Source: Spirochaetales bacterium (lineage in GTDB: Bacteria; Spirochaetota; Spirochaetia; DSM-27196; Alkalispirochaetaceae). Taken from it: 64,000 bases of DNA. Positions 15,538-64,000 of this stretch are shown one piece after another. Made by a program: the position numbers and the translations under genes. The notes below the pieces were generated by a model. That model worked only from the letters and a program-made list of their open reading frames with translations. It ran no database searches and was not told the origin of the DNA. Where the stretch lies: contig JANQHT010000078.1 of NCBI GenBank assembly GCA_028282545.1, forward strand, positions 1 through 64,000, in the 5' to 3' direction. The number at the start of each line of letters is the position of its first letter. Within the stretch, counting starts at the first letter, position 1.

Positions 15538-16686
15538 CTACGAACCGAGTTCGGCGAGCAGGTCGGGTACCGAGCGCACAAGGATCCGGTCCGTGAGCGG
15601 GTACGGTTCGATTCCGGGATACGCGACGTAAAGCGCATCCAGCTGCAGGTCTGCGAGTACTACGTGCATCGATTTTGTCGTGGCGGGAGACTCGGTGTAC
15701 TTGCATTCGATTCCGATCCGTTGCCCGCCTCGAACCAGAAGCAGATCGATTTCCCCTCCGCTGTAGGTGGACCAGAAGTACGCGTCGGAGGCGGCAGTGT
15801 TCCTCAGGATCTGCTCTATGACGAAGCTCTCCCAGGAGACGCCGATCTGCGGATGGCCAAGAAGCGAATCGTAGTCATCAACGCCAAGCAGACGGTGAAG
15901 CAGTCCCGTATCCGTCAGGTAGATCTTTGGTGATTTGACCTGTCGCTTCCCGAGGTTTTCGTACCACGGCTGGAGCTGCCGAACCATGTAGGTATCGCCC
16001 AGGATGTCTACGTAAGATCGGATTGTCTTGTCACTTAATCCCATGGAAGCCGCGAGTCGTGAACTGTTGAGGACCTGTCCATGACTGTGAGCGAGCATCG
16101 TCCAGAACCGTCTCATGGTGGATTCAGGCACGTTCACCCCGAACTGTGGAAGATCGCGCTGAAGAAAGGTGCGAATGAACCCTTCGCGCCAGGCAAGGCT
16201 GTCTTCCTCGGATTCGGCGAGGAAGGCCCGCGGGAAACCGCCCCGGATCCACAGCGCGCGCATCGAATCACGCTCGGTGCCCGTCTCGTTGATAGCAAAT
16301 CCCTGCAGATCAACGAACTCGATTCGTCCCGCCAGCGACTCCGAGGCATCGTGGACAAGCCGGCCGGAAGCGCTTCCAAGAATCAGAAACCGACCGTTGC
16401 CCACAGAGCGATCGGCGAGGACTCTCAAAACGGGAAAGAGTTCCGGCATCGTTTGGATCTCGTCCAGGACGATGAGTCCCGATAGCTCACCCAGGTACAG
16501 CTCGGGATTGCGAAGCCGGGCCCGGTCGGCCGGCGACTCAAGGTCGAAGTATTGTGAATCGATATCGCTCGCGACGCGTTGAGCGAGGGTGGTCTTGCCA
16601 CACTGGCGTGGACCGAGAAGCGCGACGATCTTTGAACGACGCAAGGCGGTACGAATTCTCGTCTCGTAGCGTGTCCGTGGGACCAT
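15538..16686 (-). CDS. AAA-family ATPase with DUF4143 domain
   Basis: 382 residues: an N-terminal AAA_14 P-loop domain (ALLGPRQCGKTTLAQRVA, Walker B LIVLDEIQTMPELFPVLR, sensor FLILGSASGRLV) and a C-terminal DUF4143 restriction-endonuclease-like domain with the nuclease-type core GGEIDLLLVRGGQRIGIECK. These proteins are widespread, often multicopy and horizontally moved; their role is unproven. I chose the ATG at 16686 (MVPRTRYETR) rather than the one at 16701, because a TTGAAA-17-TAAAAT promoter ends five bases before it and covers the other start. A homologue lies at 49137 but has a different base composition. Confidence 0.88.
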   Translation of the reverse strand: MVPRTRYETRIRTALRRSKIVALLGPRQCGKTTLAQRVASDIDSQYFDLESPADRARLRNPELYLGELSGLIVLDEIQTMPELFPVLRVLADRSVGNGRFLILGSASGRLVHDASESLAGRIEFVDLQGFAINETGTERDSMRALWIRGGFPRAFLAESEEDSLAWREGFIRTFLQRDLPQFGVNVPESTMRRFWTMLAHSHGQVLNSSRLAASMGLSDKTIRSYVDILGDTYMVRQLQPWYENLGKRQVKSPKIYLTDTGLLHRLLGVDDYDSLLGHPQIGVSWESFVIEQILRNTAASDAYFWSTYSGGEIDLLLVRGGQRIGIECKYTESPATTKSMHVVLADLQLDALYVAYPGIEPYPLTDRILVRSVPDLLAELGS

Positions 16687-16733
16687 TCGTGATTTTAACA
16701 TTGAATATTCGGATTTTCAATCCGAATATTCAA
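16687..16733 (-). promoter_or_regulatory. Leaderless promoter overlapped by a 14-bp-arm palindromic operator
   Basis: On the minus strand TTGAAA (16720-16715), 17 bases, TAAAAT (16697-16692) and five bases lead straight to the ATG at 16686 with no Shine-Dalgarno. A perfect inverted repeat, TTGAATATTCGGAT (16701-16714) and ATCCGAATATTCAA (16720-16733) with a 5-base centre, covers the -35 box and most of the spacer. A protein bound there would block transcription, which fits autoregulation. Confidence 0.75.
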
Positions 16734-47438: not shown

Positions 47439-48746
47439 ATGAGTACCGTCGTCGCCAAGTTCGGAGGGACGTCCGTCGCCAACGCCGCACAGATCAAAAA
47501 GGTTGCCGCCATCGTCAGAGCGGACGAACGGCGGCGTATCGTGGTGGTTTCCGCACCGGGTAAGCGCGACAGGCAGGACGAGAAGATCACCGATACCCTC
47601 ATCGCGTGTCACGCGCTGGCAGCCCGGGGCCGGCCCTTTCGCGACCGCTTCGCCCCAATTAGCGATCGCTTTCGCGAGCTGGCGCGGCAACTCGGCATCG
47701 GCGGTGACATGGACCCGTGGGTGGACGAGGTGGAAGATCTCATCGCTTCCGGGGCGGACCAGAGCGCCGTGGTTTCCCGGGGCGAGTACCTCTGTGCCCA
47801 CATGATTGCCCGCTATTTGGGCTTCGAATTTGTCGATGCCACCGAGATAATCGAGTTCTCCGACGCTACCACGGTGGACGCAGCGGCAACGGACCGGCGA
47901 ATCGCAGTGCGCCTCAACGGCAACGCCCGCTACGTGATACCCGGTTTCTATGGCGGGCGAACCGACGGCAGCGTACAGCTCTTCACACGGGGCGGCTCCG
48001 ACATCTCGGCGGCGCTCGTCGCCCGCGGCATCGGCGCTGAATCCTACGAAAATTGGACGGACGTTTCGGGGCTCCTCAGCGCGGACCCGCGCATCGTCGA
48101 TTCACCCCGCCCAATCGCTGAGGTCAGCTACCGGCGTCTCCGGGAATTCGCGTTCCTCGGAGCCGCCGTCTTCCATGAAGAGGCGGTTTCGCCGGCGGCG
48201 TCGCGTTCCATCCCAATTGTGATTCGAAACACAAACGCTCCGGACCATCCGGGGACGACAATCGCCGCGGCGAGCGAGTCGGAACCGCGGATCACCGGCG
48301 TGGCCGGCCGTGACGCCATTCACCTGGTGTCCGTCGAACGGTCGGGACTGGGGAAGGACGTGGAAGCTGCCGGCGCTATCGGGCGCGCCGCCCGGGACGC
48401 CGGGGTCGCCCTGGTTCACCTTGGCTTCGGGGCCGATTCGGGAACGGCCCTGGTGGCGGCCACAACGACGGAAGCGCTCGATGCGTTTTTGGGTGCAATC
48501 CCGGCGGCAGTCGGGTGCGACAACGTGGCGCCCCCGGAGGCGGTTGCGATGGTTGGAGTGGTGGGAGAGAACGTTGCGCGCAGTGCCGCGCTCATGGCCG
48601 CCGCCGTGGGGGCCCTGGAGGCGGCGTCGATCCCCGTGATGGGCGTGACCGCCGACTACTCGCCGTTCAGCTTCTTCTTCGTCGTTCCCGACGAACGGTA
48701 CGCTGAGGCGACGAAGGCGCTCTACGGCGCAGCGGTTTCCGGTTAA
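47439..48746 (+). CDS. lysC: Aspartate kinase
   Basis: 435 residues, monofunctional length. VVAKFGGTSVANAAQIKKV is the kinase N-terminal signature, FTRGGSDISAALVARGI is the aspartate/ATP region, and two ACT domains follow (about 295-360 and 370-432). It makes aspartyl-4-phosphate from aspartate, the first step to lysine, threonine and methionine. TAGGAGG precedes the ATG. The aspartate-semialdehyde dehydrogenase gene is 5.6 kb downstream, after a region of acquired DNA. Confidence 0.93.
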   Translation: MSTVVAKFGGTSVANAAQIKKVAAIVRADERRRIVVVSAPGKRDRQDEKITDTLIACHALAARGRPFRDRFAPISDRFRELARQLGIGGDMDPWVDEVEDLIASGADQSAVVSRGEYLCAHMIARYLGFEFVDATEIIEFSDATTVDAAATDRRIAVRLNGNARYVIPGFYGGRTDGSVQLFTRGGSDISAALVARGIGAESYENWTDVSGLLSADPRIVDSPRPIAEVSYRRLREFAFLGAAVFHEEAVSPAASRSIPIVIRNTNAPDHPGTTIAAASESEPRITGVAGRDAIHLVSVERSGLGKDVEAAGAIGRAARDAGVALVHLGFGADSGTALVAATTTEALDAFLGAIPAAVGCDNVAPPEAVAMVGVVGENVARSAALMAAAVGALEAASIPVMGVTADYSPFSFFFVVPDERYAEATKALYGAAVSG

Positions 48747-49022
48747 TTCAAACGGCAACGCACCGACACAAGCCTCTCACCGCATTCGCTCGGACGTTTG
48801 TTTGTATGGCGGGAAAAAGGGTCCCCTTGGCCCGCAACGGAGTCGGCAAGGGAACTTGTGGGCGGTTTGAAGTTTTTGAATTTGCATTTCCGCGTTGGGG
48901 GGTGACACATCACCGTTGTAGGGCACGGCGAGACCGCGGTGTTCCATTCACGCCCCGCGTGGGGGCGACTTGGTACGAGCTGTATCTCTCGTTTGGACAG
49001 ACGGTTAGCCCGGATATCTCAG

Positions 49023-49043
49023 TTCCTCCGAATTTCGGAGGAA
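49023..49043. repeat. Perfect 10-bp-arm inverted repeat
   Basis: TTCCTCCGAA (49023-49032), one centre base, TTCGGAGGAA (49034-49043). It has no T-run, so it is not a typical terminator. It lies 58 bp upstream of the -35-like TTGACA of the DUF4143 ATPase gene. Confidence 0.6.
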
Positions 49044-49100
49044 ACAAGCGGCTTAGTGGTCCAGATTTCGAGGGGAACACCTCAGTATGTTACCCCTCAC

Positions 49101-49136
49101 TTGACAACCATGTAAAATTATCAACAAATTCTAAAT
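49101..49136 (+). promoter_or_regulatory. Possible leaderless promoter of the second DUF4143 ATPase
   Basis: TTGACA (49101-49106) lies 36 bases before the ATG at 49137; after an 18-base spacer CAAATT (49125-49130) is a poor -10. There is no Shine-Dalgarno. The -35-to-start distance matches the other leaderless candidates in the window (34-35 bases). Confidence 0.4.
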
Positions 49137-50303
49137 ATGCATGGTACAATCGAAAGGAGGTTATACCAGGACCTTTCGCAGAAAATGACATATGCTCCGG
49201 TCTGTGCCATATTAGGTCCCCGGCAATGTGGAAAAACGACCCTTGCCGATATGTACGGCCGGGAAAACCCTACCTTTCTGAAATTGGATCTGGAACGGCC
49301 TTCGGATCTGAGAAAGCTGGATGATCCTGAATCCTTCTTTTCAGAAAACCGAGACAGGCTTATCTGCATCGATGAAATCCAGCGAAAACAGGATTTGTTT
49401 CCTGTAATCCGTTACATCACCGATAAGGAATCCCTCCCCGGACAATTCCTTATCCTGGGTTCCGCCTCAAGGGATTTGATCAGGCAGAGCTCCGAATCCT
49501 TGGCCGGTAGGATCAGTTATTTGGAGCTGACACCTTTTTTGCACAGCGAGATCAATCAGCATATAAGGCAGCTTCATTCCAGAGGAGGATTTCCCAGGAG
49601 TTATTTGGCAGAATCGGATAGACAAAGTCTGGAATGGCGGCTCAGCTTCGTCAGAGACTTCCTAGAAAGGGATATCCCATTCATGAGCTCCAGGCTTTCA
49701 CCGGAAGTCATCAGCCGGCTGCTACAGATGCTCGGGCACTGCCATGGGCAACTGTTGAATATGAGTACCATCGCGAGATCCCTGGGGGTGGACAATATGT
49801 CGGTGAAGCGATATCTGGATTTACTGGAAGGAGCGTTCATTATTCGCAAGCTTCCCCCATATTTCGGCAACTTGAAAAAGCGTCTGGTCAAATCTCCCAA
49901 AATCTACATCCGGGACTCAGGGATACTCCACGCCCTTCTGCAAATCCCCGACTGGAACGGCCTTGTGGGCCATCCTGTGTACGGTTTTTCCTGGGAATCC
50001 TTCTGTATAGAGAATATTATTCCTCAACTGAAGCCGGAGATCCGATACTCCTTTTACCGGACTTCCAACGGTGGGGAGATCGATCTGATCCTGGAAACAG
50101 CATCAGAAAAAATCGCCCTTGAGTTCAAAGTGTCCTCAGCTCCGAAGCCCGAAAAGGGATTCGGTATCGCTCTGAATGATTTGGGGATCGGCAGAGCCTG
50201 GGTTATCGCTCCTTTGGAAGACGGGTATACGATCGGGAATATTCGCTATTCCCCACTGTCACAGTTCATTGGCAACTCCGATAATCGGGATATTTTTCGC
50301 TAA
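49137..50303 (+). CDS. AAA-family ATPase with DUF4143 domain (acquired copy)
   Basis: 388 residues with the same plan as the 15538 product: AILGPRQCGKTTLAD (Walker A), LICIDEIQRKQDLFPVIRYI (Walker B region), FLILGSASRDLIRQSSESLAGR, a winged-helix region around MSVKRYLDLLEGAF, and the C-terminal nuclease-like core NGGEIDLILETASEKIALEF. Codon use is plainly more A/T-rich than neighbours (one 60-base line, 49621-49680, counted 50% G+C), so it was probably acquired recently and separately from the first copy. Its stop overlaps the end of an IS630 remnant on the other strand. Confidence 0.9.
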   Translation: MHGTIERRLYQDLSQKMTYAPVCAILGPRQCGKTTLADMYGRENPTFLKLDLERPSDLRKLDDPESFFSENRDRLICIDEIQRKQDLFPVIRYITDKESLPGQFLILGSASRDLIRQSSESLAGRISYLELTPFLHSEINQHIRQLHSRGGFPRSYLAESDRQSLEWRLSFVRDFLERDIPFMSSRLSPEVISRLLQMLGHCHGQLLNMSTIARSLGVDNMSVKRYLDLLEGAFIIRKLPPYFGNLKKRLVKSPKIYIRDSGILHALLQIPDWNGLVGHPVYGFSWESFCIENIIPQLKPEIRYSFYRTSNGGEIDLILETASEKIALEFKVSSAPKPEKGFGIALNDLGIGRAWVIAPLEDGYTIGNIRYSPLSQFIGNSDNRDIFR

Positions 50304-50508
50304 TCAATTCCAGAACATGTATGCCCTTTCCATAGTTTTCTCGCCTTGGCAATGGAAACCATGATTTCACCTGCGGTCTTGGTCCACCTGAAGGCCTTCC
50401 CCGAGCGATTCCAGTCGTGAATGTAGTCGAGGATCGCCTTCTCCAGGTGTCGTGTGCCTTCCCAGCTCTCGCGGCGAATCCGCTTGTTCATCAGCTCCGC
50501 GAACCGTG
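50300..50508 (-). mobile_element. IS630-family transposase remnant (C-terminal end only)
   Basis: The minus-strand frame encodes RFAELMNKRIRRESWEGT, then LEKAILDYIHDWNRSGKAF and WTKTAGEIMVSIAKARK. It matches the C-terminal part of IS630-type transposases (W-F-A-x-L-T-x-K-x-I-R-R...W-N...F-x-W-T-K-T-A). The catalytic DDE part is absent and the frame is cut near 50508, where VapC sequence begins on the other strand. It cannot encode an active transposase. Confidence 0.8.
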
Positions 50509-50697
50509 ACCGTCCCTATCACTGACGAAACGGCCCAATGGTTTGCCGAAGTGAAGTCCGGCCTCCGGAAACGCGGCAAACAGATACCGATCAACGACGT
50601 TTGGATCGCCGCGTCGTGCCTGGAACACGGCGCCCAACTGTTATCATTGGACGCGCACTTCGACGGGGTCGACGGCCTCCGGCGAGTGGAGTTGTAG
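50509..50697 (+). pseudogene. VapC (PIN-domain) toxin fragment, N-terminus lost
   Basis: Encodes the last ~60 residues of a VapC-like PIN protein: ITDETAQWFAEVKSGLRKRG, IPINDVWIAASCLEHGAQLL (conserved ND-WIAA) and LSLDAHFDGVDGL, ending in TAG at 50697. The first half, including the first catalytic Asp, is missing; the break coincides with the end of the IS630 remnant, which suggests the insertion and a later deletion removed it. No antitoxin gene remains. Confidence 0.75.
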
Positions 50698-50730
50698 TTT
50701 CCGTCTCGTTCCGCAACTGAGACGCCACGA

Positions 50731-51162
50731 CTACGGTGTTGCTATCTCGATAGTTTCCGGACACAGCCGTGCGAAATCCTTCACGTTGTACGTGAAGATG
50801 CGGGAGCAAGCGCCCTTTTGGGCGGCCGCAACGTGGAGCACATCGTAGGCGATTCCACCCGCAAACGCTCCGCGGGCCACTGTGGAGAGTGTATCCATGT
50901 AGTCGTCCGCAACCAAGTCGACAACTACGAGCCGTTCAACCAAGTTGGTACGAACGATAGCTTCCGCTTCCAGGCCGGACACTCGGCGTTCGACGGGTAG
51001 AGTCGTGAGGATGGCGTACACCTCGGCCAGCGAGTGGGTGGAGACATGGCCGGTATGCTCGCCGTCCGTGAATGAGGAAAAACATCGTCGCGCCGGTTCG
51101 TGATTGGGAAGTTGATCGACAAACGCGGGCACCAGGACCGACGTATCGAAATAGACGTTCAC
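50731..51162 (-). CDS. vapC: PIN-domain ribonuclease toxin (VapC family)
   Basis: 143 residues from a GTG overlapping the antitoxin stop (GTGA). PIN residues: VYFDTSVLVPAFV (first Asp), STHSLAEVYAILTTL (Glu), YDVLHVAAAQKG (Asp) and IFTYNVKDFARL (last Asp/Asn region). Paired with an AbrB-type antitoxin it forms a second VapBC module, unrelated in antitoxin type to the Phd pairs. Confidence 0.9.
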   Translation of the reverse strand: MNVYFDTSVLVPAFVDQLPNHEPARRCFSSFTDGEHTGHVSTHSLAEVYAILTTLPVERRVSGLEAEAIVRTNLVERLVVVDLVADDYMDTLSTVARGAFAGGIAYDVLHVAAAQKGACSRIFTYNVKDFARLCPETIEIATP

Positions 51163-51431
51163 CGATCAAGTCGCCCAGCAACGGTACGGCCAATCCGCCG
51201 GTCCCTTTGGCTCCGAATGTGCTCCACGACGTTGATGTCCGCGATTGTACCACCGTGGTGTACCAGGACACCGTCCCGCTCAACGAGGGAACTCCCTGCG
51301 TCCGCCGGGATCAGGTGGATCGCATCAACGGAGTCCTCGATCTCGAGCCGGGCACCGGCGTACAGGTTGTGCCGGTCACGAATCTCCTTGGGGACCACAA
51401 TACGCCCCGCCTTGTCAATGGTAACTACTAT
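51159..51431 (-). CDS. AbrB/MazE-type antitoxin with predicted AUA start codon
   Basis: The swapped-hairpin DNA-binding domain reads VVTIDKAGRIVVPKEIRDRH, the standard VapB/AbrB N-terminus. The only ordinary in-frame start is a GTG at 51398 inside this motif (V-PKEI), which would delete the first beta strand. Family alignment places the start about 11 codons earlier, where ATA stands at 51431-51429. A promoter (TTGACG-17-TACCAT) ends exactly six bases before this ATA, the same spacing as at the leaderless antitoxin genes 23014 and 63600. I therefore annotate 90 residues from ATA; the alternative is an antitoxin damaged by a start-codon mutation. Confidence 0.65.
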   Translation of the reverse strand: MVVTIDKAGRIVVPKEIRDRHNLYAGARLEIEDSVDAIHLIPADAGSSLVERDGVLVHHGGTIADINVVEHIRSQRDRRIGRTVAGRLDR

Positions 51432-51466
51432 GGTAAAATGGTAGTATTGATAGTATTACGCGTCAA
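51432..51466 (-). promoter_or_regulatory. Leaderless promoter of the VapBC (AbrB-type) operon, overlapping the gdhA stop
   Basis: TTGACG (51466-51461) contains the TGA stop of gdhA; after 17 bases comes TACCAT (51443-51438), then six bases, then ATA (51431). The region also shows repeated CTACCAT/ATAGTAG half-sites that may be the antitoxin's operator. Confidence 0.55.
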
Positions 51467-52800
51467 TACCCCAGGTCCACCATCGCGTCGGCCACGCGCC
51501 GGAACCCGGCGATATTGGCACCCCGGACGTAGTCGATACCGCCGCCGGGCATGCGCCCGTGGCGAACGCACGTGGCGTGGATCGTCTGCATGATCGACTG
51601 TAGTTTGGCGTCTACCTCTTCCGCCGGCCAGGAGAGTTTCATTGCGTTCTGCGACATCTCCAGGCCCGATACGGCAACGCCGCCGGCGTTGGCCGCCTTG
51701 CCCGGCGCCAAGGGTACCCCGGCGGCGGCAAAGGTTTCCACCGCGTCCGCGGTGCACCCCATGTTGGACGCCTCCACGACGACACCGACGCCGTTTTTGA
51801 TCAACGCCTTCGCGTCGCTTCCATCGAGTTCGTTCTGGATTGCGCAAGGAATCGCCACGTCTACCGACACCTCCCAGGGCTTCCGCCGGGGTACAAAGGT
51901 GGCGCCAAACTCGCGGGCGTAGGGTTCAACCACGTCGTTGTTCGACGCACGGAGGTCCAGCATGTACTCGATCTTCTCGTCGGTGTTGATACCGTCGGCG
52001 TCGTGGATGTAACCGTCGGGACCCGAGATCGTAACGACCCTGGCGCCCAGTTCCGTCGCTTTGAGCGCCGCTCCCCACGCAACGTTGCCAAACCCGGAGA
52101 GCGCGATCCGTTTTCCCTCGAGCGATTCGCCGCGTTCGTTCAACATCTCCACCAGGAAGTAGATCGCCCCGAATCCCGTTGCCTCAGGTCGAACCAGGGA
52201 ACCGCCCCAGAGTCTGCTTTTCCCGGTAAGGACTCCGGTGTGTTCGCTTCTTAAACGTTTCCACTGACCGTAGAGGTAGCCGATTTCGCGACCGCCGACG
52301 CCGATGTCCCCGGCGGGAACGTCTGTATCGGGCCCCAGATACCGCTGCAGTTCGGTCATAAAGGCGTTGCTGAATCGACGGATCTCCCGTTCCGAGCGAC
52401 CCCGGGCGTTGAAGTCGGACCCGCCTTTGCCACCGCCCATGGGGAGACCGGTGAGGCTGTTTTTGAAAATCTGCTCGAACGCGAGGAACTTGAGGCCGCC
52501 GGCCGTTACGCTCGGGTGAAACCGGAGCCCGCCCTTGTAGGGTCCAAGGGCGTTGTTGAACTGAACGCGGTAGCCCCTATTCACCTGGAGTTCACCCCGA
52601 TCGTCTTCCCATTCGACGCGAAAGGAGATTACCCTGTCCGGCTCCGTGATCCGTTCGAGAATTTTGTTCCCCCCATAGGACGGGGTGCGGTTCACCACGT
52701 CGATTACCGACTCACATACTTCGGTCACCGCCTGGACAAACTCCGGTTGCGCGGGGTTGCGGCGGGCAACGTCCTCGACAAATGAACGCACTTCATACAT
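51463..52800 (-). CDS. gdhA: Glutamate dehydrogenase (hexameric, NADP type)
   Basis: 445 residues, the size of bacterial NADP-dependent GdhA. Signatures: GPYKGGLRFHPSV, the catalytic Lys in LPMGGGKGGSDF, DVPAGDIGVGGREIGYL, the Rossmann motif LSGFGNVAWGAA, and C-terminal ANAGGVAVSGLEMSQN. It interconverts 2-oxoglutarate plus ammonia and glutamate. An AAGGAGC site precedes the ATG. It is divergent from an aminotransferase operon that would consume 2-oxoglutarate or glutamate. Confidence 0.95.
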   Translation of the reverse strand: MYEVRSFVEDVARRNPAQPEFVQAVTEVCESVIDVVNRTPSYGGNKILERITEPDRVISFRVEWEDDRGELQVNRGYRVQFNNALGPYKGGLRFHPSVTAGGLKFLAFEQIFKNSLTGLPMGGGKGGSDFNARGRSEREIRRFSNAFMTELQRYLGPDTDVPAGDIGVGGREIGYLYGQWKRLRSEHTGVLTGKSRLWGGSLVRPEATGFGAIYFLVEMLNERGESLEGKRIALSGFGNVAWGAALKATELGARVVTISGPDGYIHDADGINTDEKIEYMLDLRASNNDVVEPYAREFGATFVPRRKPWEVSVDVAIPCAIQNELDGSDAKALIKNGVGVVVEASNMGCTADAVETFAAAGVPLAPGKAANAGGVAVSGLEMSQNAMKLSWPAEEVDAKLQSIMQTIHATCVRHGRMPGGGIDYVRGANIAGFRRVADAMVDLGY

Positions 52801-59768: not shown

Positions 59769-62732
59769 GTGAACAAAAACGACCGCTACGAATTCGAAGA
59801 GATCCCCGTCAAAGAGCTCATGCAGCTCCGCGTGCGCGAGATCCTGTTGATCTGCAGCGCCTACGACAGTTTTATGCTGGAAGAAGACGGGCGCGTGGAC
59901 GAGCAAATCTTCGAGGAGTACGCGTCGCTCCACCTCCGCTATCCGCCGCGCTTCACCCAGGCGTTCAGCGAGGAGGCGGCGATGCGCTTCCTAAAGACGC
60001 GTTCCTTCGACCTGGTCATTTCGATGGTAAACGTCGGCGGTCCGGATGCGGCAGATCTGGCACACCGTATTCACACAACGTACCCGTCGCTTCCCGTCGT
60101 GTTGCTCTCGCCGGCGGGACGGACCACCGGAACGACCGCTTCCGTCGTTCACCGGGGAGACTCCGTACACGAGTTCGCCTGGCTCGGTGACGATTCGATT
60201 CTCCTGGCGATCGTCAAGGTGATCGAGGATCGGAGAAACGTTGACAGGGACGTCGCCGAGGCGGGTGTGCAGGTGATCATCCTTGTGGAAGATTCCGTTC
60301 GGTTCTATTCGGGATACCTGCCGGTGATCTACCGAACGCTCATCCAGCAGGGCCGAAACCTCATGGAGGAGGGACTCAACGAATGGGAGCAGACAACACG
60401 TATGCGTTGCCGTCCCAAGATCCTGCTCGCCAAGACGTACGAGGAAGCAACGGACCTCTTCGACCGGTACCGAGAACACGTGCTCGGCGTCATAACCGAC
60501 GTCTCCTATCCGAGGGGCGGAGAGGAGGATCCCGAGGCCGGAATCGAACTGTGCCGGCGTATACGTGATAAAGACCCGGACCTTCCGATCCTTGTGCAGT
60601 CGTCCAACCGTGACCATCGTGACGCCGCACGCGAGTGGAACGCCGAGTTCCTCCACAAGTACGCCAAAGACCTCTACTTACAGCTCCAGCGCTACCTGCG
60701 CCACCACTACGGTTTCGGCGACATCCTCTTTCGCAACCCCGAGACGGGAACGGTTGTTGCCCAGGCGTCGAACCTGCGGGAACTGCAGGCGATCATCCGG
60801 GATGTCCCGGATGAAAGCGTCGTCCACCACTTCCGGCGTAACGACGTGTCGCGCTGGCTCCGCGCGCGGGCGCTCTTCCCGCTGGCGCGCGTAATGTGGA
60901 AGTACCAGCCGGATCTGACAGACCCGGAACGTTCGAGAGAGGGTGCGTACAACATCATCGCCGCCTATAGGCGGTGGCAAAGCCGCGGGAAGATCGCGCG
61001 ATTCGACCGCAGTCGGTACGACGTCTATGCGTCGTTCGCACGAATCGGAAACGGGTCCCTGGGGGGCAAGGGGCGTGGACTCGCCTTCGTGGACCACACG
61101 CTCAAGAACCACGACGTTCGCGACCGTTACCCCGGCGTGCTCGTGTCGATTCCGCGAACGGTTGTGCTCGCAACCGATATCTTCTCACGTTTCATGGAAG
61201 CGGAGGAACTGGCGCACCTGCACACGGAGGAACTCTCGGACGACCAGATACTGGCGGCGGTGGTCGCCGTCGACTTCGACCGGGAGTTGCGGGCGGATCT
61301 CCGGGCGGTACTGACGGTGATCACGGGGCCCATGGCCGTTCGGTCCTCCAGCCAGCTCGAAGACTCCAGCTACCAGCCGTTCGCCGGCGTGTACAACACG
61401 TTCCTGCTTCCAAACGCCGCAGACGACACTCAACGCCTAAGCGACCTGGAAACCGCGATCAAGTGCGTCTTTGCCTCGACCTACTTCCGCGCATCCCGGG
61501 ACTATCTCGCATCGGTTCACAGTCGCGCCACCGAGGAAAAGATGGGCGTGATCATCCAGGAGATGACGGGAACGGTCCACGGCGACCGCTGCTATCCGAC
61601 GATCTCCGGCGTGGCGCGGTCCATCAACTTCTACCCGACGGAACACGAGTCGAGTGACGACGGAGTCGCCTACGCGGCGATCGGACTCGGAAAGAGCGTG
61701 GTGGACGGGATGCCCTCCCTGCGTTTTAATCCGCGTCGCCCCGACGCGGCGCTGCAACTGAACGATACGGAGGCCGCCCTGCGTACGACGCAGAAACACT
61801 TCTACGCGCTCCGGATGTCGATGGACGCGTTCGAGGCGTCCGTGGACGAGGAAACGCCGCTTGAAGTTCGTGACGTACGGACGGCTTCAGAGGATCCGTC
61901 CTTCCCGTTGGTGGTCTCCACGTATGACCGGCACGAGCACACGTTGCGTGACGGATGGGCCCCTCCGGGGCGTCCCGTTGTAACCATGGCGGGAATACTC
62001 AAGTTTGACGCCTTTCCGCTGGCACAGATTCTCAGCGATCTGCTGGAAATATCGGCGCGGGAGCTCGGCACGCCGGTAGAAATCGAGTTTGCCGTCGATC
62101 TCAACCGGCCCACGGGTGAGCCGGCGCTTTTCAGTTTTCTCCAGGTCCGGCCGATCATCCCCGGCGCCGAATCGAACGACGTGGACCTAACCGGCATTGA
62201 CGCGTCACAGGCGCTTGTCTACTCGGCGTCGGCACTCGGCAACGGCGTTCTCAGTGACGCGACACACGTGCTCTACGTAAAACCGAACGCGTTTGACCCG
62301 GCGAACAGCCGGGAGATCGCCGAGGCGATCGGTACAGTGAACGAGCGCATGGCCGCCTCGGGAGAACAGTGTGTGCTGATAGTGCCGGGACGGCTCGGGT
62401 CACGCGACCCGTGGCTGGGAATCCCCGTGGCGTGGCACCACATCTGCCAGGCACAGGTCATCTGCGAGTACGAACTGGAAGGCTTTGTCGTGGACCCCAG
62501 CCAAGGTTCGCACTTCTTCCACAACATTACGGCACTCCGCGTCGGGTACCTCACCGTCGCCAAAAACGCGATCGACTTCCCCTACCTCGACGCATCCCCG
62601 GCTTGGTTCGACGAACGGGGCGTTTGCGCGGTCTCCTACTCGCAGGGTATCGAAACGGTCATAGACGGGAAGAACCGCGTGGCGGTTGTGAGGTACCCCG
62701 CGGAAACCGACGGTACCGCCCGGGAACCGTAG
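59769..62732 (+). CDS. PEP synthase/PPDK-like ATP-grasp protein with two receiver-like domains
   Basis: 987 residues from the GTG at 59769 (VNKNDRYEFEEIP); a TTG at 59694 would place the terminator-like repeats inside the gene. About residues 15-140 form a receiver-like domain lacking the phospho-Asp, and about 165-325 a second one that keeps VEDS, LGVITDVSYPRGG (Asp), PILVQSS and FLHKYAKD (Lys). From about 430, a PPDK N-terminal ATP-grasp domain follows: GSLGGKGRGLAFV, MAVRSSSQLEDSSYQPFAGV, VIIQEMTGTVHGD, AIGLGKSVVDG and FSFLQVRPI. The phosphohistidine swivel and PEP-binding domains of true PEP synthase are missing; the remaining ~140 residues are unlike them. Role unknown; it is not a normal PEP synthase. 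Confidence 0.8.
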   Translation: MNKNDRYEFEEIPVKELMQLRVREILLICSAYDSFMLEEDGRVDEQIFEEYASLHLRYPPRFTQAFSEEAAMRFLKTRSFDLVISMVNVGGPDAADLAHRIHTTYPSLPVVLLSPAGRTTGTTASVVHRGDSVHEFAWLGDDSILLAIVKVIEDRRNVDRDVAEAGVQVIILVEDSVRFYSGYLPVIYRTLIQQGRNLMEEGLNEWEQTTRMRCRPKILLAKTYEEATDLFDRYREHVLGVITDVSYPRGGEEDPEAGIELCRRIRDKDPDLPILVQSSNRDHRDAAREWNAEFLHKYAKDLYLQLQRYLRHHYGFGDILFRNPETGTVVAQASNLRELQAIIRDVPDESVVHHFRRNDVSRWLRARALFPLARVMWKYQPDLTDPERSREGAYNIIAAYRRWQSRGKIARFDRSRYDVYASFARIGNGSLGGKGRGLAFVDHTLKNHDVRDRYPGVLVSIPRTVVLATDIFSRFMEAEELAHLHTEELSDDQILAAVVAVDFDRELRADLRAVLTVITGPMAVRSSSQLEDSSYQPFAGVYNTFLLPNAADDTQRLSDLETAIKCVFASTYFRASRDYLASVHSRATEEKMGVIIQEMTGTVHGDRCYPTISGVARSINFYPTEHESSDDGVAYAAIGLGKSVVDGMPSLRFNPRRPDAALQLNDTEAALRTTQKHFYALRMSMDAFEASVDEETPLEVRDVRTASEDPSFPLVVSTYDRHEHTLRDGWAPPGRPVVTMAGILKFDAFPLAQILSDLLEISARELGTPVEIEFAVDLNRPTGEPALFSFLQVRPIIPGAESNDVDLTGIDASQALVYSASALGNGVLSDATHVLYVKPNAFDPANSREIAEAIGTVNERMAASGEQCVLIVPGRLGSRDPWLGIPVAWHHICQAQVICEYELEGFVVDPSQGSHFFHNITALRVGYLTVAKNAIDFPYLDASPAWFDERGVCAVSYSQGIETVIDGKNRVAVVRYPAETDGTAREP

Positions 62733-62902
62733 GTAGGACCCGCGGGCACGTCAACGGCGGCACCGCGTTGCGGGCGTGTAGAGACCCGTGAATGCCCTCG
62801 TCTATCTCCGCAACGATCACGTCTACCGCTTTTGCTCCGGCGTTTACGAAATCGTTCATACCGCGCCGACAACCAACGGGAATAGCGCATTGCGGACAAC
62901 GT

Positions 62903-63364
62903 TCATGGTATCACCCCGGTGGGGTTGGATTTGTTGTTCTCGGCAAAGGGCGTGATCAAACCGAGAGAGCGCGCACACCGGTTCATGGCGCGGTCAAATG
63001 AGAAAAGGTGAACCGCGCCGCCATGCTCCACAACGCCTCCCGCCAGGAATTCTGCCGTAGCCATGTGCAAAGCATCCAGCGTTCGAACAACAACGGGAAA
63101 CGTACCCTTGGCGCGTTCTTTGATGGCCGCAGAGAGGAGGAACAGGTCGGTACCATCCAAGACCGCACCGAGACGATCCCGCGCCGCAACAAGACCATCA
63201 TCGTCAAGGAGACCTTCCAGCCGCGCACGCTCAATGACGCGCCGGCACTCGATCTCCAGCAGTTCGCTCGAAACAACACGAGGAATCGCCGACACGTGAT
63301 GAATCGCAGGATCACCGTTCAGGATATACCGAAGTGCTACCGACGAATCGAGATACGCGATCAC
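62903..63364 (-). CDS. vapC: PIN-domain ribonuclease toxin (VapC family)
   Basis: 153 residues from a GTG overlapping the antitoxin stop. PIN residues: IAYLDSSVALRYIL (first Asp), VVSSELLEIECRRVIERARL (Glu), TLDALHMATAEFL (Asp) and LFSFDRAMNRCARSLGL (last Asp). The -SSEL-x-x-E-x-R- pattern is common in VapC proteins paired with Phd-type antitoxins. It is the third intact toxin gene in the window. Confidence 0.9.
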   Translation of the reverse strand: MIAYLDSSVALRYILNGDPAIHHVSAIPRVVSSELLEIECRRVIERARLEGLLDDDGLVAARDRLGAVLDGTDLFLLSAAIKERAKGTFPVVVRTLDALHMATAEFLAGGVVEHGGAVHLFSFDRAMNRCARSLGLITPFAENNKSNPTGVIP

Positions 63365-63600
63365 CGGTCAGCCCGCTCCCTTTCCAAAAGGCGGACGGCG
63401 TCTTCATCGATCAACGATTCCGCACGGGGGAGATCAAAGATCCGCCTGGCGGGACGCACAAGTTCAAGGTCTCGCGCGATCGGGATGATCATTGCCACCG
63501 GGCGTTTGTGGTCAAGTATCGTAACGGAATGGCCTTCCGCCACCCATCGTAACTCCCGGCTGAGATGCGCCTTTAACTCCGCAATCCCGATAGTCTGCAT
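63361..63600 (-). CDS. Phd/YefM-type antitoxin
   Basis: 79 residues: IGIAELKAHLSRELRWVAEG and HSVTILDHKRPVAMIIP form the Phd DNA-binding fold, and the C-terminal part (FDLPRAESLIDEDAVRLLE) is the toxin-binding helix. The ATG is fixed by family alignment and has no ribosome-binding site; a strong promoter ends six bases before it. Confidence 0.88.
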   Translation of the reverse strand: MQTIGIAELKAHLSRELRWVAEGHSVTILDHKRPVAMIIPIARDLELVRPARRIFDLPRAESLIDEDAVRLLERERADR

Positions 63601-63635
63601 GTGACTATTTTATGACTATTTTTTGAAATTTTCAA
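63601..63635 (-). promoter_or_regulatory. Leaderless promoter with direct repeats, third TA operon
   Basis: TTGAAA (63635-63630), exactly 17 bases, TAAAAT (63612-63607), six bases, then ATG at 63600. The 10-base repeat AAAATAGTCA occurs twice (63622-63613 and 63611-63602) with an 11-base period over the spacer and start, a likely antitoxin operator. Confidence 0.75.
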
Positions 63636-63692
63636 CGACGATGCGCGAGACGTTTATCCCTACGTTAAGGAAAAAAGGACGACCCAGCGGCC

Positions 63693-64000
63693 CTACCCGA
63701 TCTCCACCCCCAGCCCCTTCTCCTGGGCGATCGCGTAGGCGCGCAGGCTGATCATCGTGTCCTGTACGCCGACGCCTGTGAGGTCGCACATGGTGACCTG
63801 CTGCTCGTCGGTTCGGCCCGGGTGCTTACCGTTCACAAAGGCGCCGAGTTCAAAGATGGGAGTCTCCGCCGTGATGGCGCCGTCCCGCAGGGCGGATCGC
63901 AGTTCGCCCAGACGCGTACTCTGCGCCTTTAAATCGCAGGCGAGAATATTCACCGCGCCGGCCACCGCCCCTTCCAGTTCCTGCTTCTCTTCGGCGTCGG
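63693..64000 (-). CDS. Ornithine cyclodeaminase/mu-crystallin family protein, N-terminal part outside window
   Basis: The frame is open to the window edge and ends at 63693. The ~100 visible residues match the C-terminal part of the family: FELGAFVNGKHPGRTDEQQ, VTMCDLTGVGVQDTMISLRA and YAIAQEKGLGVEIG, like the typical ...GE-x-x-x-G-x-x-x-GR...D-x-TG-x-A-x-QD... pattern. Members include ornithine cyclodeaminase and imine reductases such as alanine or ketimine dehydrogenase. The N-terminal lysine-binding and Rossmann parts are not seen, so activity cannot be assigned. Confidence 0.8.
   Translation of the reverse strand, partial: DAEEKQELEGAVAGAVNILACDLKAQSTRLGELRSALRDGAITAETPIFELGAFVNGKHPGRTDEQQVTMCDLTGVGVQDTMISLRAYAIAQEKGLGVEIG

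Follow-up and report, generated by a model that had tools for sequence, protein, structure and literature searches.

Chromosomal hotspots of horizontal transfer are often devoid of recognizable mobile elements, as described in those parts of the study by Oliveira et al. 2017 on which we draw (PMC5635113), and the candidate system PDC-S01 is ranked fourth among defences across prokaryotes in the sections of a further account used here, validation pending for most of its candidate group (PMC12988326). Searched for under the names DUF4143 or PDC-S01 the literature is sparse; papers with other names would be missed. Here we analyse the interval between the convergent genes lysC and gdhA in a Spirochaetales bacterium (assembly GCA_028282545.1, a draft of 4.28 Mb in 165 contigs, 86% complete). 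It lies in the window, i.e. the first 64 kb of the 103-kb contig JANQHT010000078.1, and contains, from left to right, a 390-bp gap, a DUF4143/AAA_14 gene, a 3' fragment of an IS630 transposase gene, a fragment of a vapC gene and a VapBC pair (Table 1). The locus as a whole is best explained by stepwise filling, accompanied by decay: very probably, the lysC-gdhA junction was nearly closed in the ancestor and was filled in this lineage by several small modules.

The comparison with relatives carries this explanation. A search for lysC at E 1e-40 in 61 genomes, i.e. the window's own and 60 relatives, none of them of the same genus, found the gene in 15, the window's own included. In four relatives lysC and gdhA are arranged tail to tail with their stop codons only 15, 150, 99 and 75 bp apart, as compared to a stop-to-stop gap of 2,716 bp in the window. 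Three of these relatives (G003, G006 and G007) belong to the same family, where gdhA is followed by an aminotransferase gene and asd in the same order as in the window; the fourth (G041) belongs to another family of the order and its contig stops within gdhA. Thus, none of the comparable sites found carries the insert, and the only occupied one is that of the window. Apart from a weak 41-bp match in G041, the gap has no DNA match in 45 other genomes of the order. The sequence-only reading had seen acquired and broken DNA from at least two stacked events and had proposed to compare the interval across relatives, where the same arrangement of fragments in all of them would have spoken against recent turnover; the empty sites and the identified pieces agree with its view. 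In contrast, its suggestion that the insert splits lysC from the operon carrying asd does not hold, as gdhA already lies between the two, convergent with lysC, in G003, G006 and G007, and the separation thus predates the insert. Nor is its label of a hotspot established, which would call for different cargo at this place in several relatives; the sites compared are all empty and belong to other genera.

Several points weigh against this reading of the junction. The nearest genomes with a comparable junction all belong to other genera, lysC being 55% (G007), 55% (G003) and 53% (G006) and gdhA 77%, 74% and 74% identical, respectively, so neither the age nor the number of the events can be fixed. 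In four further genomes of the order with this lysC (G014, G038, G044, G045) the two genes are codirectional and several kb apart, which is uninformative, and the 1.5-kb flanks of lysC examined in five genomes of the class with a lysC match contained no gdhA. The draft state of the assembly adds to this, as the unusual ATA codon discussed below could be an assembly error. Finally, the interval might be ancestral and lost in the relatives. As only four syntenic relatives were found, one loss in each is formally possible, but all four are closed at 15-150 bp and the low G+C content of the DUF4143 gene fits arrival, making ancestry very improbable. Altogether, 90 lysC loci, most of them from other phyla, were checked for gdhA (80, plus the five of the class, plus five already compared). 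A match was obtained in six, namely the four codirectional loci, L039, which we take as G003's own, and the clostridial L066, which has a convergent dehydrogenase gene about 0.5 kb from lysC, the product being 32% identical, and which was excluded from the count. In G055 no gdhA was seen near lysC.

The base composition of the pieces helps to distinguish between stepwise filling and acquisition in a single step. Profile matches and G+C content confirm the flanking genes, the VapC fragment and the A+T-richer DUF4143 ATPase gene named by the earlier reading. The G+C content is 0.607 for the window, 0.58-0.61 for the IS630 fragment, the VapC fragment and vapBC, and 0.490 for the DUF4143 gene. The genome has nine DUF4143 matches, and in the four other genes measured (of eight other places) the G+C content is 0.57-0.61, which supports arrival of the gene in the interval. 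Alternatively, the whole 2.7 kb may have been acquired at once from an island of another bacterium, the IS630-VapC fusion being already made, e.g. by transformation and recombination in the flanks. Consistent with such an import, a family profile search detected no integrase among the interval proteins, no repeat pair bounding the interval was found, and for many hotspots without recognizable mobile elements recombination at the flanking core genes is described in the parts of the hotspot study used here (PMC5635113). The shifts in G+C content inside the interval (0.49 versus 0.58-0.61), however, suggest different sources, and we regard a one-step import as unlikely. In the stepwise scheme the DUF4143 gene would have arrived from a donor of lower G+C content and, judged from its sequence, still looks functional.

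Table 1. Features of the lysC-gdhA interval, its flanks and the second filled junction (positions in the window; strand "." if none is assigned).
Feature	Position	Strand	Evidence or remark
lysC (aspartate kinase), left flank, convergent with gdhA	47439-48746	+	AA_kinase 3.9e-35
Thermonuclease (SNase) gene relic, 33 bp, codons for RGLAVPYNGD	48908-48940	-	31/33 to contig 5, E 2.9e-6
Perfect inverted repeat TTCCTCCGAA-T-TTCGGAGGAA, arms 10, spacer 1	49023-49043	.	no T run behind
Dyad over the DUF4143 start, 37 bp, degenerate, CCATG..CATGG, CCATGTAAAATT...AAATATGCATGG	49108-49144	.	arms 9/12
DUF4143 (AAA_14) protein, PADLOC PDC-S01, apparently intact	49137-50303	+	Pfam E 5.6e-42 and 2e-25
IS630 transposase 3' fragment	50341-50505	-	90% DNA identity over 165 bp to contig 149 copy
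CCGCGAACC, 9 bases common to IS630 and VapC similarities	50497-50505	.	presumed deletion join
VapC (PIN) fragment without N-terminal half and without vapB	50497-50697	+	PIN 1.2e-06, profile positions 66-119 of 120
VapC toxin (PIN), full length	50731-51162	-	PIN 2.4e-10, profile 1-117 of 120
VapB antitoxin (AbrB/MazE type), ATA at start position 51431-51429	51159-51431	-	AbrB domain 1.2e-12
vapBC promoter TTGACG-17-TACCAT	51438-51466	-	-35 box contains gdhA stop codon (51465-51463)
gdhA, right flank	51463-52800	-	ELFV_dehydrog 8.9e-82
Second VapBC, PIN toxin	62903-63364	-	inside 62732-63693 junction
Second VapBC, Phd/YefM antitoxin	63361-63600	-	starts of pair GTG and ATG

The broken pieces in the middle of the interval reveal how decay may have proceeded. 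On its own, the stump attributed to IS630 has no significant match to this family; the attribution is borne out by the copy on contig 149, the halves of which match NCBIfam transpos_IS630 (7.3e-24 and 5.5e-10). This copy, the sole near-full one found when full-length elements were sought as the earlier reading had advised, is itself disrupted, and besides it the genome contains two fragments (153 bp at 82% and 62 bp at 77%); no intact copy was found in the assembly. Multi-copy elements are often lost from such draft assemblies, so an intact IS630 may still be present in the organism. Of an IS630 family transposase gene the interval retains no more than 165 bp from the 3' part, a remnant rather than a working element, and no terminal repeat was recognised. 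The partner of the stump, the VapC fragment, has matches in 21 of 46 genomes of the order, the window's own included, and its similarity to homologues in other genomes opens in frame with P-R-T, encoded from 50497 on. The two fragments had been described as meeting at about 50508; the join is real, but it actually consists of a shared stretch. As CCGCGAACC is part of both similarities, the join resembles the scar of a deletion that used short direct repeats as microhomology; for an insertion of IS630, a terminal repeat at TA would be expected at the end. On the VapC side, the join is defined by protein similarity, the exact parent not having been found. We infer that a VapBC module once neighboured an IS630 element and that a deletion via the ~9 bp of shared sequence may have fused the 3' end of the transposase gene to the 3' end of vapC, thereby removing vapB. 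The overlap of the DUF4143 stop codon (TAA, 50301-50303) with the stop codon of the IS630 frame on the opposite strand (TAG, 50302-50300) had been counted as a sign of insertion or deletion as well. The overlap exists, but the IS630 similarity begins only at 50341, i.e. the frame reaches its stop codon outside the IS630-like sequence, and the overlap does not indicate an insertion point.

The VapBC pair of the interval sits at the very end of gdhA. Its toxin is 51% identical to the copies in G042 and G030, and homologues occur in 20 of the 46 genomes searched from the order, again including the window's own. VapB matches accompany 16 of 19 VapC loci checked, two of them more distant and 14 sharing a leader like that of the window, in which a box of the TTGAC type and one of the TACCAT type precede the start codon, ATG in 13 cases and GTG in one (L139). 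In the window the promoter and the codons following the start align, but none of ATG, GTG and TTG is found at the conserved position, which is occupied by ATA. Thus, of the VapBC pair once called intact, VapC is of full length whereas VapB is doubtful. The pair may nevertheless be fully functional, VapB starting at ATA or at an internal GTG (51398), in which case the older fragments alone would be broken: ATA is among the alternative start codons of table 11, and the promoter, the remainder of vapB and a full-length vapC are all present. We regard this as a real possibility without favouring it, since the 14 close homologues use ATG or GTG, a start at 51398 would presumably cost the AbrB fold its first strand, and vapC overlaps the end of vapB, so that weak translation of vapB would probably lower that of vapC. 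The pair may hence be decaying, may start from ATA, or may contain a base error. In the favoured scheme of stepwise filling this module would have arrived driven by the conserved TTGAC-17-TACCAT promoter, the antitoxin gene losing its standard start later. The edge of the module at the -35 box (51461-51466) may have been set by TTGA microhomology.

A further convergent junction, 11 kb from lysC-gdhA, tells a similar story. In G003 and G006 the genes flanking the junction 62732|63693 have 14 bp in common, i.e. the junction is closed in both relatives seen, whereas in the window they are 960 bp apart and enclose another VapBC pair, which we count in favour of stepwise filling. Inserts between convergent genes hit no promoter or operon, and this harmlessness would explain their survival at such sites. 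PIN matches number 29 in the genome, six of them on the contig of the window. Given such low counts and a window selected for its debris, we draw no statistical conclusion on convergent sites.

The DUF4143 protein is the least worn component of the interval. It matches models of PDC-S01 (4.8e-83 at best; another PADLOC model, covering residues 5-337, at 1.2e-51), and its AAA_14 and DUF4143 domains exceed the curated cut-offs (89.7 and 143.6 bits). Its layout comprises an ATPase, a winged-helix-like stretch, with a sub-threshold helix-turn-helix match at residues 192-240, and a PD-(D/E)XK-like domain. Residues G27, G32, K33, D79, E80, E314, D316, E329 and K331 are retained, each being present in 28-29 of 29 aligned rows, and we take the pattern E314-x-D316...E329-x-K331 to fit the PD-(D/E)XK motif. 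AlphaFold2 predicts the structure with a mean pLDDT of 92.9. In the model, the first 270 residues resemble Arch/STAND ATPases, a likeness by predicted fold only, with 2qen (Z 17.3, rmsd 2.9, 248 residues aligned) and 2fna (Z 16.6, rmsd 3.0, 249 aligned) on top, followed by NLR and CED-4 STAND proteins at Z ~13, which are mixed with the AAA+ proteins dynein and p97 at Z 12-13.5, so that these NLR/CED-4 and general AAA+ rows together span Z 12-14; Foldseek TM-scores normalized to the query length are low (at most 0.36 among the 50 matches listed). The last 150 residues, predicted alone (pLDDT 86.7), resemble PD-(D/E)XK proteins, once more by predicted fold only: Can2 (8q41_B; Z 8.4, rmsd 4.3, 140 aligned) and McrC (6hz4_M; Z 8.1, rmsd 3.8, 126 aligned) are among the top matches, many of which are nucleases (Can2, Card1, McrC, VRR_NUC, Hjc), but the TBP-interacting protein 2czr equals the top score of Z 8.4 and the Foldseek E-value is 2.8e-3 at best. 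This predicted combination of an Arch/STAND-like ATPase and a PD-(D/E)XK-like domain most likely points to a small protein that acts on DNA, either in defence or in plasmid maintenance. Carriage by phages has little support, since only 7 of 50,697 phage records match (20-31% identical). The gene is commoner on plasmids (380 of 72,556 records, all below 60% identity), and in several of 20 plasmid stretches it adjoins replication, partition or recombinase genes. On the Emticicia plasmid pEMTOL02 (L210) a lone DUF4143 gene lies, in opposite orientation to both neighbours, between araA and the gene for L-ribulose-5-phosphate 4-epimerase, i.e. a further solitary insertion between functionally linked genes.

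DUF4143/PDC-S01 genes often carry a dyad of 29-47 bp at the start codon, the arms of which vary from gene to gene and stay complementary. The best upstream inverted repeat scores at least 8 in 16 of 25 DUF4143 genes (24 of the order and that of the window), as compared to 11 among 79 control regions upstream of other genes and to 3 of the 25 regions downstream (Fisher 3e-6 versus the control upstreams). The 25 genes were kept from 32, L006, L007, L008, L171, L175, L176 and L179 being dropped for having no match, being partial or distant, or lying near a contig end; among the 79 controls, one of the 11 scorers belongs to the other DUF4143 gene of the window, and some frames are probably spurious or counted twice in overlapping loci. 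In a test bound to the position before the Walker A codon, the outer arms match at 10/12 or better in 17 of 44 genes versus 4.8% of 660 shuffles and 4 of 44 regions located 150 bp farther upstream (44 of 45 genes; L162 was dropped as its chosen start lacks Walker A), and the same holds for 9 of 20 plasmid genes, which were collected after the pattern had been noticed. Among 28 dyads picked by eye, 11 span 37 bp; as they were chosen because a dyad is visible, their arm match of 10.25/12 is biased upward. Arms of different genes match at 3.9/12 (random ~3), with 21 different left 8-mers in the 28 dyads. A common form is CCTTGCA...TGCAAGG, found in Alphaproteobacteria, Acidithiobacillus and some spirochaetes, others being CCATGAAA...TTTTCATGG in spirochaetes and TTTATGTAA...CATAAA in two Bacteroidota. 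Examples are L001, L161, L163, L172, L177 and L181 from genomes and L199, L203, L205, L207 and L209 from plasmids, and some dyads surround a TTGAC box.

Some results speak against such a general dyad: at least one of the nine plasmid genes, L210, is counted through a different repeat that extends into the gene, the open search in plasmids yields 11 of 20 upstream versus 5 of 20 downstream (P 0.054), and several genes have no dyad (e.g. L002, L212, L215 and L217). In the window the arm match is near the shuffle mean of 8.2 and is thus weak evidence; the dyad is placed close to where several relatives have theirs and ends ~70 bp before Walker A, like several plasmid dyads, many spirochaete dyads ending 82-89 bp before it. 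The second DUF4143 gene of the window (15538-16732, minus strand) has a perfect inverted repeat with 17-bp arms directly upstream of its start. A transposon-like unit with terminal repeats on both sides of the DUF4143 gene was also considered and rejected, as downstream inverted repeats of at least 8 occur in just 3/25 genes of the order and 5/20 on plasmids. In the simplest reading the dyad would be an operator through which the winged helix regulates its own gene. More tentatively, we speculate that the winged helix may bind its own dyad, each STAND-like ATPase-nuclease thereby repressing itself, and that activation may occur once its oligomer is drawn to foreign DNA or once the dyad is copied or forms a hairpin by extrusion; the dyad might then be a private self-mark travelling with the gene onto plasmids and chromosomes, the module in the window being one carrier with a worn dyad. 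Either way, the dyad is a testable cis-element and a DNA ligand for a very common, uncharacterised defence candidate.

The gap to the left of the DUF4143 gene had been called free of genes, which is true for the two unannotated frames tested (48806-49324, plus strand, and 48777-48947, minus strand), neither of which has a family match, but not for the thermonuclease relic. This near-perfect match in an otherwise almost unmatched gap corresponds to the 3' part of a gene on contig 5 (PF00565), the sole SNase gene found in the genome. The perfect inverted repeat noticed in the gap is present. In the window, 8 separate sites (merged from 13 rows) have a perfect 10-bp inverted repeat with a short loop, compared with ~0.8 expected on scaling up 10 shuffles of 8 kb, so a repeat of this kind is genuine but no rarity there. 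It can be ruled out as an intrinsic terminator, as no T run follows, and as a member of a genomic repeat family, being single copy with up to 2 mismatches allowed. The RNA fold of 48990-49140 has a z of -2.5. A search of the interval against Rfam yielded only a sub-threshold snoRNA match outside the repeat, i.e. SNORD14 at 49647-49759 (minus strand; 28.4 bits versus a cut-off of 64) within the DUF4143 gene, which we take as chance. The repeat may itself be the DUF4143 dyad, although it lies 93 bp upstream of the start, whereas the dyads of relatives mostly end at most ~40 bp from it.

Taken together, the interval is a clear example of toxin-antitoxin and defence modules that accumulate between convergent genes and then decay, interesting as a case and ordinary as a kind. 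The VapBC pair shares with other modules of this type the AbrB-type VapB and PIN VapC domains, the overlap of the genes and the promoter of its relatives, and differs from them by its ATA start. The DUF4143 gene shares the models and the AAA_14 and DUF4143 domains with PDC-S01, a start-codon dyad not being met in those sections of the PDC-S01 account that we used (PMC12988326). Finally, accessory genes and debris between two core genes, with no integrase in the interval, are common to the window and the hotspots of Oliveira et al., insofar as these are covered by the parts of the study used here (PMC5635113); the window differs from them in that a single occupied genome is known and that strain turnover is not among the observations.

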